A DNA stretch of 64,000 nucleotides from Pseudomonas donghuensis (GTDB lineage Bacteria > Pseudomonadota > Gammaproteobacteria > Pseudomonadales > Pseudomonadaceae). Positions 47,854 to 52,510 of this stretch are shown piece by piece. Position 1 is the first letter of the stretch. Each line of letters begins with the position of its first letter. The translations under genes were made by a program, and so were the position numbers. Where the stretch lies: positions 158,735 to 222,734 of the forward strand of contig NZ_JH650757.1 of NCBI RefSeq assembly GCF_000259195.1, written 5' to 3'. The notes under the pieces are model-generated. The model was not told the DNA's origin and did not search any database. It was given only the letters and a program-made list of their open reading frames with translations.

Positions 47854-48588
47854 TTACGAGGACGGCACGGTAACCGCAGCCTTGTGCTTCAACTCAACCG
47901 GCCGGCGATACAGCACCCAGTAATAACAGCCAAGGCTGATCAGCCAGCAGAACACCGCCGTCCACACGTTGTGCGAAAAAAAGTGCGCGCCCTGCAGCAT
48001 GCGCCCCACTGAAAACAGCGTGCCCAGGCCAAAGGCGAACACCAGCGCTGCCTTGGCCAGGCGTGGACGCCGGTCGCGCAAGACAAAAAACAGGGCAAAC
48101 AGGGTAAAGCCGGTCGCCGCATGGCCACCCGGCCAGCAGCGTCCGGGCTTATCGGTGGCCGGGCGCGGGCTGAGCAGCTCGCTGTAGGTCTCCTTGCCGC
48201 CAAATTCGCTCAGGCTCCAGGGGCACTGCACCGCCGTCACGGCTTTGACCGGCGTGACAAAACTGGTCGACAGCCCCATGGCCAGGACCAGGCAGCCCAG
48301 CTCCCGACGCCAACTGAACAGGCGTGTCCAGAAGAAACTCGCGGCGAAGGCGACAACCGCCAGCAAGCCGAGGACGATCACCGCCTGTTTGGCCCGGTCA
48401 TGCAGGATATCTTCGAGAAAGTAGCTGTGCCGGCCGATGAACTGCCCCGCCACCGGGTCGAACGCCAGCTTGGCCAGGTCCATGTCCAGTGAGGTCAGCT
48501 CCAGCAGGATCAATATCACCGCGGTGACGGCGGGGATGCCCAGGGCAATCCAGAAATTCAGCGGACGGGAGTAGGCAGGTAGTGACAT
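47854..48588 (-). CDS. PAP2-family membrane phosphatase, probable ColR target
   Basis: A 244-residue integral membrane protein of the PAP2 (type 2 phosphatidic acid phosphatase) family. Relatives remove phosphate from lipids such as undecaprenyl pyrophosphate or lipid A. Motif 2 is CWPGGHA and motif 3 is GRMLQGAHFFSHN, with the catalytic histidine present but His in place of the family's usual final Asp. About six membrane helices are visible. It is divergent from colR, and a ColR box lies 78 bases before its start, so ColRS control is likely. The exact substrate is unknown. Confidence 0.87.
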   Translation of the reverse strand: MSLPAYSRPLNFWIALGIPAVTAVILILLELTSLDMDLAKLAFDPVAGQFIGRHSYFLEDILHDRAKQAVIVLGLLAVVAFAASFFWTRLFSWRRELGCLVLAMGLSTSFVTPVKAVTAVQCPWSLSEFGGKETYSELLSPRPATDKPGRCWPGGHAATGFTLFALFFVLRDRRPRLAKAALVFAFGLGTLFSVGRMLQGAHFFSHNVWTAVFCWLISLGCYYWVLYRRPVELKHKAAVTVPSS

Positions 48589-48666: not shown

Positions 48667-48682
48667 GTGAAAAAAACGTTAA
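48667..48682 (-). promoter_or_regulatory. ColR box upstream of the PAP2 gene
   Basis: Read on the minus strand, TTAACGTTTTTTTCAC matches all defined positions of the ColR consensus as I recall it for P. putida, (T/C)(T/C)NA(C/G)NN(T/C)TTTTTCAC. It lies between the PAP2 gene and colR and points towards the PAP2 gene. Confidence 0.8.
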
Positions 48683-48776: not shown

Positions 48777-49460
48777 ATGCGAATTCTACTGGTTGAAGAC
48801 AACCGCGATATCCTCGCCAACCTGGCCGACTACCTGGGCCTGAAGGGTTACACGGTGGACTGTGCCCAGGACGGTCTCTCCGGCCTGCACCTGGCTGCCA
48901 CCGAACACTACGACCTGATCGTGCTCGACATCATGTTGCCAGGCATCGACGGCTATACCCTGTGCAAGCGCCTGCGCGAAGACGCCCGGCGCGACACCCC
49001 GGTGATCATGCTCACCGCCCGTGATCAGCTGGACGATCGCCTGCAGGGCTTCCGCTCCGGCGCTGACGACTACCTGCTCAAACCGTTTGCCCTGTCGGAG
49101 CTTGCCGCGCGCATCGAAGCGGTGCTGCGTCGCACCCAGGGCGGTGGTCGGCGTACCCTGCAGGTCAGTGACCTGGTCTACGACCTCGACACGCTGGAAG
49201 TCAGCCGCGAGGGCAAATTGCTCAAGCTCAACCCGGTCGGCCTGAAGCTGCTGGCGGTGCTGATGCAGAAGAGCCCGCATGTGCTGCGCCGCGAAGTACT
49301 CGAAGAGGCGCTGTGGGGCGACGATTGTCCGGACAGCGACAGCTTGCGCAGCCACGTTCACCAACTGCGCCAGGTCATCGACAAACCGTTTGAAAAACCC
49401 CTGCTGCATACCGTCCACGGCGTCGGCTATCGCTTGGCCGAGGGCCGTGATGGAGTTTAA
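48777..49460 (+). CDS. colR: Response regulator ColR
   Basis: ColR is the OmpR-type response regulator of the ColRS system, which in P. putida responds to zinc and iron(III) excess and protects the cell envelope. The 227-residue protein has a receiver domain with acidic residues EDN near the start, the phospho-acceptor Asp51 in VLDIMLPG and Lys101-type LLKPF, followed by a winged-helix DNA-binding domain (VLRREVLEEALWGDD, then LLHTVHGVGYRLAEG). It overlaps colS by 11 bases. Its identity rests on sequence and on the flanking ColR boxes. Confidence 0.93.
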   Translation: MRILLVEDNRDILANLADYLGLKGYTVDCAQDGLSGLHLAATEHYDLIVLDIMLPGIDGYTLCKRLREDARRDTPVIMLTARDQLDDRLQGFRSGADDYLLKPFALSELAARIEAVLRRTQGGGRRTLQVSDLVYDLDTLEVSREGKLLKLNPVGLKLLAVLMQKSPHVLRREVLEEALWGDDCPDSDSLRSHVHQLRQVIDKPFEKPLLHTVHGVGYRLAEGRDGV

Positions 49461-50748
49461 ACAAAGCCTTGCCCAGCGGATCATCATTGCCTTTGCCCTG
49501 ATGAGTGCGATGGTGGCCGGGGCCTTCGCCTTCGGCATTGTCGCTACGGTCCACCTGGTTGAAGAACGCTTGATCTCCGCCGTGCTGGGCGGCGACCTGC
49601 AACGTTTGCTGCGCATGGACAGCGTCAGCGACTGGAGCCACCGGCCGCGGCCGGACCAGCTGTTCTATTTCAGCGGCGGGCGTGATGACTTCGAGCTGCC
49701 CAAGGATTTGCGTCACCTTGACCGTGGCTTTCATGAAGTGTTTCGTGAAGATCTGTCCTACCACGCGATGGTCGAAATCGTCGATGGCCGTCGCTACGTG
49801 CTGTTGCAGGACCAGAGTGATTTCGAAGAGCGCGAGCGAGTGCTGTTCGCGGTGGTCGTGGTCGGCTTTGTCCTGAGCCTGGCGCTGGCGGTATTCCTCG
49901 GCTGGGTCCTGGCCCGGCGGGTGATGGCACCGGTGATTCGCCTGGCCCGCCAGGTGCGCCACCGTGATCAACTGCTGGGCCTGGCGCCGCCCTTGGCGCC
50001 CGATTACGCTGCGGATGAAGTCGGTCAGCTGGCCGTGGCGTTCGACGATACCCTGGGGCGTCTGCGCGATGCGCTGACCCGTGAGCGCCTGTTTACCAGT
50101 GATGTCAGCCATGAGCTGCGCACGCCGTTGATGGTGCTGGCCAGCTCCTGTGAGCTGTTGCTGGTCAACCCCAACATCGACACCCGCGCCCGATCCCAGG
50201 TCGAGCGCATTGCCCGGGCCACCGAAGAGATGCAGGAGTTGGTGAAGACCTTCCTGATGCTCGCCCGTGCCCAGCGTGACGAAGGCGCGGTCGCCTCGCA
50301 GGCGAGTATGAAAGAGGTGGCCGATGACCTGATTGGCGTCTGGCGCGATACCATCGAGCAGAAAGGCCTGACATTGCTGTACGACGCCAAGGCTGCAACC
50401 CCGACCTTGTACAACGCCACCTTTCTTCAGGCGGTCATGGGCAACCTGCTGCGCAATGCGGCGCACTACACCGATCAGGGCTTTATTCGCCTGACGCTGG
50501 AACCGGCGGGGTTCCTGGTCGAAGACAGTGGTGTAGGGATTCCCGAAGAGCAGCGTGAAGCCATGTTCCGGCCGTTTGTGCGCGGCGATGAAAAGCGTGG
50601 CGAGGGCCTGGGCTTGGGCTTATCACTGGTGCAGCGGATTTGTGACGACCAGGGCTGGAGCGTCAGCCTGACCGCCATGGTGCCCCATGGCTGCCGCTTT
50701 CACGTAGACCTGAGCCTGGCACTGCAAAGGCCGACTGACCTCGAATAG
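49450..50748 (+). CDS. colS: Sensor histidine kinase ColS
   Basis: ColS is the membrane kinase that activates ColR. The 432-residue protein has membrane helices at about residues 11-34 and 132-154, a periplasmic domain of about 95 residues, HAMP, HisKA with SHELRTPLM and a HATPase domain (NLLRNAAHY, GVGIP, GLGLGLS). The periplasmic E126-x-x-E129 pair (in FEERER) agrees with the ExxE metal-sensing motif reported for P. putida ColS, and His35, Glu38, His95 and His105 are also there. The ATG lies inside the colR end. Confidence 0.93.
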   Translation: MEFKQSLAQRIIIAFALMSAMVAGAFAFGIVATVHLVEERLISAVLGGDLQRLLRMDSVSDWSHRPRPDQLFYFSGGRDDFELPKDLRHLDRGFHEVFREDLSYHAMVEIVDGRRYVLLQDQSDFEERERVLFAVVVVGFVLSLALAVFLGWVLARRVMAPVIRLARQVRHRDQLLGLAPPLAPDYAADEVGQLAVAFDDTLGRLRDALTRERLFTSDVSHELRTPLMVLASSCELLLVNPNIDTRARSQVERIARATEEMQELVKTFLMLARAQRDEGAVASQASMKEVADDLIGVWRDTIEQKGLTLLYDAKAATPTLYNATFLQAVMGNLLRNAAHYTDQGFIRLTLEPAGFLVEDSGVGIPEEQREAMFRPFVRGDEKRGEGLGLGLSLVQRICDDQGWSVSLTAMVPHGCRFHVDLSLALQRPTDLE

Positions 50749-50802: not shown

Positions 50803-50818
50803 CTAACGAATTTTTCAC
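50803..50818 (+). promoter_or_regulatory. ColR box upstream of the methyltransferase-kinase operon
   Basis: CTAACGAATTTTTCAC matches the ColR consensus except at one position (A for T/C before the T run). It is 66 bases before the methyltransferase ATG and points towards it, the same arrangement as at the PAP2 gene. Confidence 0.78.
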
Positions 50819-50884: not shown

Positions 50885-51565
50885 ATGCGTAGCCCTATCA
50901 AACTCGAGTTTTCGGATAAGTACGACCAGCAGCACGCCCAGGAATACTTCCTCAAGCACCAGGACGGCCTGGCGCGCCGGATGTCCCACCAGCGTGACGA
51001 GCAACTGGCCCGTCGCGCCCTGGCCCTGGCTGGCGAACCGGGGCTGGTGCTCGACTTGCCGTGCGGTGCCGGGCGCTTCTGGCCGTTGCTGGCGGAAAAG
51101 CCCAACCGGGTGATCATTGGTGCCGACAATTCCGAAGCCATGCTCGAAACCGCGCGGGCCTCGCAGCCGGCTGCGGTGGTGGAACGGGTACGTACCTTGC
51201 AGACCTCCGCATTCGCCATCGATTTACCGGACAACTCGGTCGACAGTATTTTTTGCATGCGGCTGATGCACCACATCGGCGATGCGGCCCATCGCAAAAC
51301 ATTACTCTCTGAATTTCAACGGGTTACCCGCGACAGCGTGATCGTCTCGCTGTGGGTGGATGGCAATTTCAAAGCCTGGCGGCGCAAAAAGCTCGAGCAG
51401 CGGCGTTACGTCGAAAAAGGGCAGGGCAGTTACCAGAATCGTTTTGTGTTACCTGTTGCCACGGTTGAAAAGGAATTTGAAGCCGCAGGTTTCCGCATTC
51501 AGGAACGATTGGACTTTTTACCGTTCTACGCCATGTGGCGAGTCTATCTTTTGCGTAAGGGGTAA
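50885..51565 (+). CDS. SAM-dependent methyltransferase, class I
   Basis: A 226-residue class I methyltransferase. The SAM-binding motif is LVLDLPCGAGRFWPLL near residue 56, followed by an acidic-asparagine VIIGADNSEAMLE motif and a FAIDLPDNSVDSIFCMRLMH segment (motif post-II of the UbiE/Methyltransf_11 type). The substrate is unknown. It starts an operon with the kinase and small protein below, preceded by a ColR box, and stands after colS. An envelope lipid or LPS substrate is inferred only from this context. Confidence 0.87.
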   Translation: MRSPIKLEFSDKYDQQHAQEYFLKHQDGLARRMSHQRDEQLARRALALAGEPGLVLDLPCGAGRFWPLLAEKPNRVIIGADNSEAMLETARASQPAAVVERVRTLQTSAFAIDLPDNSVDSIFCMRLMHHIGDAAHRKTLLSEFQRVTRDSVIVSLWVDGNFKAWRRKKLEQRRYVEKGQGSYQNRFVLPVATVEKEFEAAGFRIQERLDFLPFYAMWRVYLLRKG

Positions 51566-51572
51566 GCGGGGA

Positions 51573-52283
51573 ATGGGGTTTGAGCGCACAGCAGCAACGA
51601 CGAACAAGGATCAGTTCGATCATTTCTGGCAGCAGCAGGGCGAATGGGTCGAGGAGCCCAATCAGCGTCGTGGCGGCGAGAGTGGTGTACAGCGACTGAG
51701 CGACGACGCTGGCCATACGTTTTATGCCAAGCGCCAGATCGGCCATATCTACCGCAGCCTGTTGCACCCCTTCGGGCGCCCTACCGTGTTGCGTGAATAC
51801 GATGCCCTGAACAGCTTCGAGCAACTGGGGGTGCGGGTGCCGCATATTGTCTATTGCGGCGTTGACCGTGATGCCGCGCATCAGTGGCGAGCCTTGCTGG
51901 TCAGCGAGGCGCTGGAAGGCTTCGAGGATATCGACAGCTGGTTCGCCGCCGGTGCCCGAGAGCGGTACCACCCGGCATTACACGAGCGGGTGCTGGAGGA
52001 CCTGGCGCAGAACCTGGCGCGGATGCACCGCGGTCATTGGCAGCATGGTTGCCTGTATGGCAAGCATGTCTTCGTCAAGGTCATTGGCCAAGGTGCCGAG
52101 GCTCGGGCTGAAGTGGCCCTGCTGGACCTCGAAAAGTGCCGCCGGCGCATCAGTTGTCAGCGTGCCGCGCTCAATGACCTTAAACAACTGCGCCGCCATT
52201 CGTCTTTCAACGACACAGAGTGGCAAAAACTGCTCTATTTTTACCAAGGAGCGTTTGGCAGCGCTGTCAAAGGTTTAGAGTAA
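51573..52283 (+). CDS. InaA/WaaP-type lipopolysaccharide kinase family protein
   Basis: A 236-residue protein of the LPS-kinase/InaA family, a small eukaryotic-like kinase fold whose members phosphorylate LPS core heptose or Kdo. Visible parts are the Lys-containing strand FYAKRQIGHIYRSL, the hinge area VSEALEGFEDIDSW, the catalytic-loop-like HRGHWQHGCLYGKHVFVK, and DLEKCRRR in the place of DFG. The catalytic loop shows HGCLYGKHV rather than HGDLHxxN, but the family commonly deviates. It is cotranscribed with the methyltransferase (7-base gap) and with the next small gene (1-base overlap). Confidence 0.85.
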   Translation: MGFERTAATTNKDQFDHFWQQQGEWVEEPNQRRGGESGVQRLSDDAGHTFYAKRQIGHIYRSLLHPFGRPTVLREYDALNSFEQLGVRVPHIVYCGVDRDAAHQWRALLVSEALEGFEDIDSWFAAGARERYHPALHERVLEDLAQNLARMHRGHWQHGCLYGKHVFVKVIGQGAEARAEVALLDLEKCRRRISCQRAALNDLKQLRRHSSFNDTEWQKLLYFYQGAFGSAVKGLE

Positions 52284-52510
52284 TGAAACTAGAAATAGCC
52301 CGAGGTTTGTTTCTGGTGATTGCCTTGGCCGTGGCAACCGCTGCCGTAGCGGCGTGGGAGGAGCCTCGCCCGCAGGTTTTCAGCAAGGTCGATGCCGGTG
52401 CGCAATGCCCGTTGCCACGGGTGGTAAAACCCCAGGTCGATGCCAAGCCGGATCACGACCTGTTGTTATTGCTGTTCGGCCTGAGCCAGGGCGTACGCGC
52501 CAGCGGCTGA
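52283..52510 (+). CDS. Small hypothetical secreted or membrane-anchored protein (75 aa)
   Basis: A 75-residue protein I cannot assign to a family. An N-terminal hydrophobic helix (GLFLVIALAVATAAVAAW) resembles an uncleaved or cleaved signal peptide, and the rest is proline- and valine-rich, with one cysteine (GAQCPLPRVV) and a second hydrophobic stretch (DLLLLLFGLSQG). Its ATG overlaps the kinase stop by one base (TAATG), and codon use fits the neighbours, so it is probably a real part of the ColR-controlled operon. Confidence 0.65.
   Translation: MKLEIARGLFLVIALAVATAAVAAWEEPRPQVFSKVDAGAQCPLPRVVKPQVDAKPDHDLLLLLFGLSQGVRASG

Follow-up and report, generated by a model that had tools for sequence, protein, structure and literature searches.

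The two-component system ColRS of Pseudomonas is followed by three closely packed genes, which code for a methyltransferase, a protein with the fold of lipopolysaccharide (LPS) kinases and a protein of only 75 residues. The question raised by this locus is whether the third gene is simply the last member of a ColR operon or has a control and a function of its own. Here we present the analysis of the locus in a stretch of 64,000 nucleotides from Pseudomonas donghuensis (contig NZ_JH650757.1), hereafter the window, together with its comparison in 119 sampled genomes of the genus and 148 genomes of the family Pseudomonadaceae. The best explanation overall, which we hold with somewhat better than even confidence, would be a warA-warB operon with a separable third gene that has its own promoter, and with an atypical WarB. 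As far as the searchable literature goes, the element within the warB end and the loss of the HRD aspartate in WarB appear to be new. Papers are cited by their PMC numbers.

The warA-warB operon and its control by ColR

The gene order (Table 1) is that of the warA-warB operon, which is represented by PP0903-PP0905 in P. putida, PA4379-PA4377 in P. aeruginosa and orf222-wapQ in P. fluorescens. This operon likewise lies behind colRS and shares the ColR box 55-100 nt 5' of warA, the methyltransferase, the InaA-type kinase-fold protein and the small third gene. The three-gene locus is a ColR-activated warA-warB operon with a PP0905-like gene, and the operon itself was already known. A preliminary description made from the letters of the window had reported three tightly coupled genes behind a ColR box, and this was borne out with start and end exact: warA and warB are 7 nt apart, and warB and the small gene share 1 nt (TAATG). 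Its remark that no biochemical role is known no longer holds, as the pair is WarA/WarB. In the original WarA paper the two proteins reportedly form a complex and are compared to the O-antigen terminator WbdD.

Table 1. Features of the locus, with positions counted from the first letter of the window.
Feature	Position	Strand	Remarks
PAP2-type phosphatase gene	47854..48588		
ColR box TTAACGTTTTTTTCAC	48667..48682	-	upstream of the PAP2-type phosphatase gene; 0 mismatches
colR, response regulator	48777..49460	+	P. putida PP0901 in same order
colS, sensor kinase	49450..50748	+	match at E<=1e-100 in 118/119 genus genomes
ColR box CTAACGAATTTTTCAC	50803..50818	+	upstream of warA; 1 mismatch to published consensus
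warA-type SAM methyltransferase	50885..51565	+	226 aa; position of PP0903 / PA4379
warB, InaA-type kinase-fold protein	51573..52283	+	236 aa; K53 (beta3-Lys), E75 (alphaC-Glu) and D185 (DFG-Asp) kept; C160 at HRD-Asp position
Putative AlgR-type box CCATTCGTC	52196..52204	+	within warB coding end, 87 nt 5' of small gene; 1 mismatch to consensus CCGTTCGTC
Putative -10 element TATTTT (TANNNT)	52236..52241	+	31 nt past the box
Conserved leader TTTGGCAGCGCTGTCAAA, near-palindrome	52254..52271	+	precedes Shine-Dalgarno of small gene
Small gene, exported or single-span protein	52283..52510	+	75 residues; position of PP0905 / PA4377

The product of warA matches Methyltransf_25 of Pfam (E 2.8e-16) and WarB matches PF06293 (E 2.3e-57; 194.2 bits versus a cut-off of 21.3); profile searches with Pfam and NCBIfam placed the 75-residue protein in no family above its cut-off. 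The small gene shares 95% identity with its relative in P. wadenswilerensis and 92% with that in P. rubra.

In P. putida, where PP0903-PP0905 are treated as a three-gene operon, PP0903 is activated by ColR, which protects a site 5' of this gene (PMC2689224), and the PP0903 promoter is induced by zinc, iron, manganese and cadmium via ColS (PMC4074579). PA4377-PA4379 of P. aeruginosa are described as one operon (PMC3902932), in which WarA is PA4379 (PMC9769906); according to a review it is a c-di-GMP-responsive methyltransferase and affects O-antigen length (PMC7168646). In P. fluorescens WCS365 plant protection is lost in a warB deletion, not in a warA deletion (PMC8805031). The ColR control, metal induction and envelope role suggested in the preliminary description are thus published for the orthologous operon (PMC2689224, PMC4074579, PMC8805031, PMC7168646). 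Metal sensitivity, which it had proposed as a check, is found in P. putida in part: deletion of PP0903-PP0905 alone leaves the zinc and iron MIC as before, and the zinc MIC falls from 5 to 4 mM when PP2579 is deleted as well (PMC4074579).

The published ColR consensus reads (T/C)(T/C)NA(C/G)NN(T/C)TTTTT(C/G)AC (PMC2689224); a first ad hoc ColR-like pattern had given no site at the locus. In 92 loci of the genus warA precedes the small gene, and in 91 of these the core TTTT(C/G)AC lies 55-100 nt 5' of warA, versus 0.6% of random placements; the whole consensus is matched with no mismatch in 9 of the 92 loci, one in 35, two in 25, three in 16 and four in 7. On these sequence counts the ColR box upstream of warA is not due to chance. 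Where neither enzyme gene lies upstream (13 loci), the best ColR match has 3-4 mismatches in 12 and one in L068; where the kinase gene comes first (14 loci), there are none in L116, two in three loci and 3-4 in ten. By eye, a T-tract resembling a ColR box is kept at the deletion junction of L064. The perfect ColR box on the minus strand, upstream of the PAP2-type phosphatase gene, agrees with PP0900 as a published ColR target (PMC2689224).

WarB and the HRD aspartate

The structural model of WarB (mean pLDDT 92) resembles the LPS heptose I kinase WaaP (RfaP, PDB 6dfl) with a VIA-align Z of 18.8 (rmsd 3.5, 207 aligned residues, 19% identity) and PRPK/Bud32 with a Z of 19.2, which is a tie. WarB has the fold, the Lys, the Glu, the His and the DFG Asp of WaaP but differs from it by a Cys in place of the HRD Asp. 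In an alignment of 92 proteins from the warB position longer than 200 residues and 20 paralogs, 110 have Cys at this position and two have Ser (91 Cys and one Ser at the warB position, 19 Cys and one Ser among the paralogs), and all 112 keep K53, E75 and the DFG D185 as well as the His and E187. The Cys also occurs in E. coli InaA, which agrees with WarB in the HGC loop, the Lys, the Glu and the DFG Asp and differs in the setting of its gene, between yfaE and the yfaH pseudogene and outside any methyltransferase operon. Against the InaA equivalog NF007383 of NCBIfam WarB scores 171.3 bits, under the curated cut-off of 235. The genome's own WaaP and a second kinase of its waa cluster have the HRD Asp; the waa-cluster paralog L202, which we take to be WapQ from its gene order, has HGC for HRD, and a core-LPS gene may thus share this anomaly.

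Growth is not supported by the WaaP variants D163A, H161A and K51A (PMC6147952). Since WarB keeps the ATP-binding residues and lacks the HRD Asp that WaaP needs, it is probably not an ordinary LPS kinase, and would more likely be a nucleotide-binding partner of WarA, or an atypical transferase, than a conventional LPS heptose kinase. The paired chemical change of the envelope that the preliminary description had proposed retains the support of the methyltransferase and kinase folds, but a plain phosphorylation step is doubtful with Cys or Ser at the HRD position in 112/112 proteins. Whatever its chemistry, WarB is functional, as is evident from the phenotype that the warB deletion of P. fluorescens has of its own (PMC8805031).

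Of the other explanations the one with the best standing, to which we give a little less than an even chance, is that WarB has activity, either as an atypical kinase or in the transfer of another group, the base having moved, for example, to E187, which lies near the DFG Asp and could replace the missing residue. The invariance of the Lys, Glu, His, DFG Asp and E187 favors such an activity, as does the precedent of SelO, a kinase-fold family that lacks the HRD Asp and is argued to have kept its activity (PMC3281104); the failure of WaaP D163A to support growth (PMC6147952) speaks against it, and a literature search gave no activity report for any InaA-type protein. The same search turned up no paper that we recognized as treating InaA-type proteins as pseudokinases.

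A conserved element within the end of warB

The end of warB carries a conserved element that the preliminary description did not see. Over the 90 loci with full gene order (out of 119), synonymous change has a mean of 0.488 across warB and drops to 0.242 over its final 30 codons, lower than in any other window of the gene; suppression is strongest in the last 10 codons (0.135) and still amounts to 0.293 in codons -30 to -21. No such fall is seen at the ends of warA (0.432) and colS (0.509), nor in 20 InaA-type kinases without a small gene behind them (0.53-0.58), of which two have the box described below at <=1 mismatch and 18 lack it. The invariant positions, surveyed in 78 of the 119 loci, are a box CC(A/G)(T/C)TCGTC and, about 31 nt on, TANNNT, whose last T is in coding copies the third base of the codon for F223 (TTT).

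Within intact warB the box is present at <=1 mismatch in 96/96 loci, a match reached by 0.7% of random 25-nt windows, with TANNNT 30-33 nt on in 96/96. Part of this conservation is protein constraint, as the coding copies encode RHSS. The 23 remaining genus loci, in which the kinase gene is missing or truncated, lies elsewhere or is set apart by a gap, are non-coding at this position; here the box is kept at <=1 mismatch in 19, the other four copies having 2-3 mismatches, and TANNNT follows after 30-33 nt in all 23 and after exactly 31 nt in 18. Grouped by the gene directly upstream, the box is found in 101 of the 103 loci with a kinase and in 14 of the 16 without an intact one; seven of the 103 have it in the gap behind the kinase and count as non-coding in the division into 96 and 23. 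In the 16 loci the distance from box to ATG is 84 to 89 nt and that from box to TANNNT is 31 nt in 15. Three species that share a common loss keep 69/90 columns over the last 90 nt versus 28/86 above. The 80 best named loci, partly of the same species, all have the box and the spacing.

In 20 loci from other genera the box is present at <=1 mismatch in 14, of which 12 have it at -84 to -87 (g2, g4, g6, g8, g9, g12, g15 and one of g10); at this threshold it is missing in L216, L217, L218, L219, L223 and L225. Only four of the nine loci of other genera without a kinase directly upstream have the box, one of them out of place, and the element appears not to be universal outside the genus.

A classical -35 is not recognizable, and by eye the spacer is unconserved in the loci without kinase; the missing -35 is as expected for an activator-dependent promoter. 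An RNA hairpin over the leader was considered and rejected: the sequence folds, but one of the eight pairs is found in only 19% of the loci and there is no convincing compensating change. Taken as sequence patterns, the box and the -10-like element suggest that the small gene probably has an AlgR-type promoter of its own besides read-through from the ColR promoter. A search of open-licence papers on PA4377 to PA4379, and on AlgR together with ColR, warA, warB or inaA, brought up no mention of an internal promoter or an AlgR-type box for the third gene, or of its retention without warAB. AlgR control of the small gene likewise did not come up in this search.

The AlgR core consensus is CCGTTCGTC, common to RB1 and RB2 of algD and ABS1 of algC, from which natural AlgR sites depart by one or more bases (PMC4064291). 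The AlgR-activated promoters of algD, algC and fimU have the same 9-bp box, and the placement of the putative box, at about -52 to -44, would be near that of algD RB3 at -45 (PMC4064291). RB3 differs in its opposite orientation, and the warB-end box in its location within a coding end, where AlgR action is putative. The window's own box departs from the AlgR consensus at position 3. This position is G, as in the consensus, in 14/23 non-coding copies versus 0/96 coding ones, and exact CCGTTCGTC is found in 8/23 versus 0/96; in the coding copies a histidine codon fixes it as A. The box thus seems to move towards the AlgR consensus once it is freed from coding. Position 4 is C in 45/119 loci, a variant not among the AlgR sites given in the accessible portion of PMC4064291. 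The identification with AlgR is a 9-bp match made after the motif had been seen.

The genome has a single LytTR match (L208, E<=0.001), presumably AlgR judging from its sequence and the hemC-like ORF behind it. AlgR matches are found in 104/104 family genomes with the small gene and in 143/148 overall, and since AlgR is nearly universal in the family its presence says little. With no second LytTR match in the genome, AlgR comes first among possible activators of the small gene, and is a strong candidate only.

Less probable than not, but to be taken seriously, is an internal promoter that is real and answers to a regulator other than AlgR. That the motif preceded the match would agree with this, as would the A at position 3 and the frequent C at position 4 of the coding copies and the frequent lack of the box in other genera without the kinase; the G at position 3 in 14 of the 23 non-coding copies, eight of which are exactly CCGTTCGTC, and the single LytTR match of the genome argue for AlgR instead.

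Slightly less probable again is a plain three-gene ColR operon without internal promoter, in which the conserved warB end would reflect translational coupling, ribosome binding and protein constraint. The TAATG overlap, the description of the three genes as an operon (PMC2689224, PMC3902932) and the concentration of synonymous suppression in the last 10 codons (0.135) are in its favor. The suppression nevertheless reaches codons -30 to -21 (0.293), which is far for a ribosome-binding site, and outside intact warB the box is kept in 19/23 loci and the spacing in 23/23, while the distance to the ATG varies from 84 to 89 nt. A promoter within warB, with AlgR as candidate activator, remains the reading that we prefer.

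The small gene and its place in the locus

In the 75-residue protein A21-x-A23 may mark a site for signal peptidase; the sequence also contains C42 and, towards its C-terminus, a hydrophobic helix. Helices are placed at 2-24 and 58-70 by a structural model of low confidence (pTM 0.33). The protein occurs in 119/119 sampled genomes of the genus and, at E<=0.01, in 104/148 genomes and 14/19 genera of the Pseudomonadaceae, a tally that includes two weak matches, in G143 (2.9e-4) and G172 (0.005), as sole carriers for the genera g19 and g18. In an order-wide sample it was found in 8/194 genomes, all eight in the Pseudomonadaceae, and a comparison with phages gave no match. The 80 named loci, which are best matches and partly of the same species, are titled Pseudomonas in 78 cases, Pantoea in one and gamma proteobacterium in one. 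The locus titled Pantoea sp. Cy-639 (L278) is of the Pseudomonas type and the genome is probably mislabelled.

The neighborhoods of all 119 genus genomes were compared in stretches of up to 20 kb, mostly 12 kb and shorter at contig ends. The complete order colR-colS-warA-warB-small gene is found in 90/119 loci; in six the small gene follows colRS without either of the enzyme genes in between, and in 15/119 colRS are absent from the stretch examined. For the 104 loci in which the small gene has ColS beside it, a quick ColS tree was calculated under a simpler model; beside colRS the kinase gene is lost or truncated in 9/104, with at least four state changes on this tree, and warA has at least six. 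The dN/dS of the small gene is 0.11-0.19 in seven pairs of species in which no intact kinase gene lies directly upstream.

The genomes of L061-L063 have no InaA-type match at E<=0.001 and all three have a warA relative of 49-52% elsewhere; for L074-L076 no warA match reaches E<=1e-30, and the kinase matches of these genomes are distant, the best having an E of about 1e-33 to 1e-31. Loss of warA or warB function from such genomes would not be established by these counts, since more distant relatives can sit elsewhere in the genome. From its retention without the enzyme genes at the locus and its low dN/dS, the small gene appears to be under selection of its own and separable from WarA/WarB in control and function. 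A role as fixed partner of ColS was also considered and is weakened by G011 (one of the 119) and at least 8/104 family carriers without a ColS match at E<=1e-100, although these may have ColS proteins of weaker similarity.

Several loci depart from the usual arrangement. In L116 the segment of kinase and small gene is tandemly duplicated, with a partial colS copy in between, and L067 has a warA-like gene 3' rather than 5' of the small gene and no colRS in the stretch examined. Several genomes (L237, L239, L240, L242, L243) possess a second cluster of colS-like (about 52%), warA-like and warB-like genes without the small gene, separate from a pair of warB-like and small gene elsewhere. Codon 3 of the small gene (52289-52291 of the window) is CTA or TTA in 92/119 loci, both rare leucine codons in Pseudomonas.

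The model of the preliminary description, in which WarA and then WarB modify LPS core or phospholipid with the small protein as adaptor, is improbable: the methyltransferase and kinase folds and the effect of WarA on O-antigen length (review PMC7168646) agree with it, but the missing HRD Asp and the loss of plant protection in P. fluorescens with warB and not with warA, so that the two are not partners in every case (PMC8805031), speak against it, and the adaptor role is rejected because the small protein is kept intact where both enzyme genes are gone from the locus and has a conserved upstream element of its own.

In the explanation that we favor, metal-activated ColS/ColR would act on warA via the ColR box and yield WarA and WarB together with the small protein, the latter by read-through, as is published for the orthologs. 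A promoter for the small gene alone would lie within the last 30 codons of warB and consist of the AlgR-type box and the TANNNT -10. The small protein would belong to the envelope, with a helix at the N-terminus that serves for export or as an anchor, then a stretch that contains a single Cys, and a hydrophobic helix at the C-terminus; acting independently of WarA and WarB, it may respond to envelope stress or modulate a sensor, under two two-component systems. Small membrane feedback regulators of sensor kinases are known from the MgrB type. By description only, the small protein is like these in being short, with one predicted N-terminal hydrophobic helix, and under two-component control; unlike them, it is retained in some genomes that lack a close ColS.

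A joint reading goes further and must be called speculative, with a low probability: the small protein would be a family-wide envelope regulator at which ColR, by read-through, and AlgR, through the warB-end promoter, meet, a feedback modulator of AlgZ/FimS or ColS independent of WarA/WarB, and WarB and the InaA/WapQ-like clade would be pseudokinase-type partners.

A specialist would probably be surprised by the putative internal promoter, the small protein's apparent independence and the missing Asp, each of which should be directly testable. The missing Asp makes the annotation 'LPS kinase InaA' directly testable. If the explanation is true, a gene that is present in every sampled genome of the genus and regarded as the last of three genes in a ColR operon would answer to another regulator, and metal sensing would be linked to the AlgZR network. 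The promoter of the small gene may then also be lost when warB is deleted, so that warB phenotypes would need checking.
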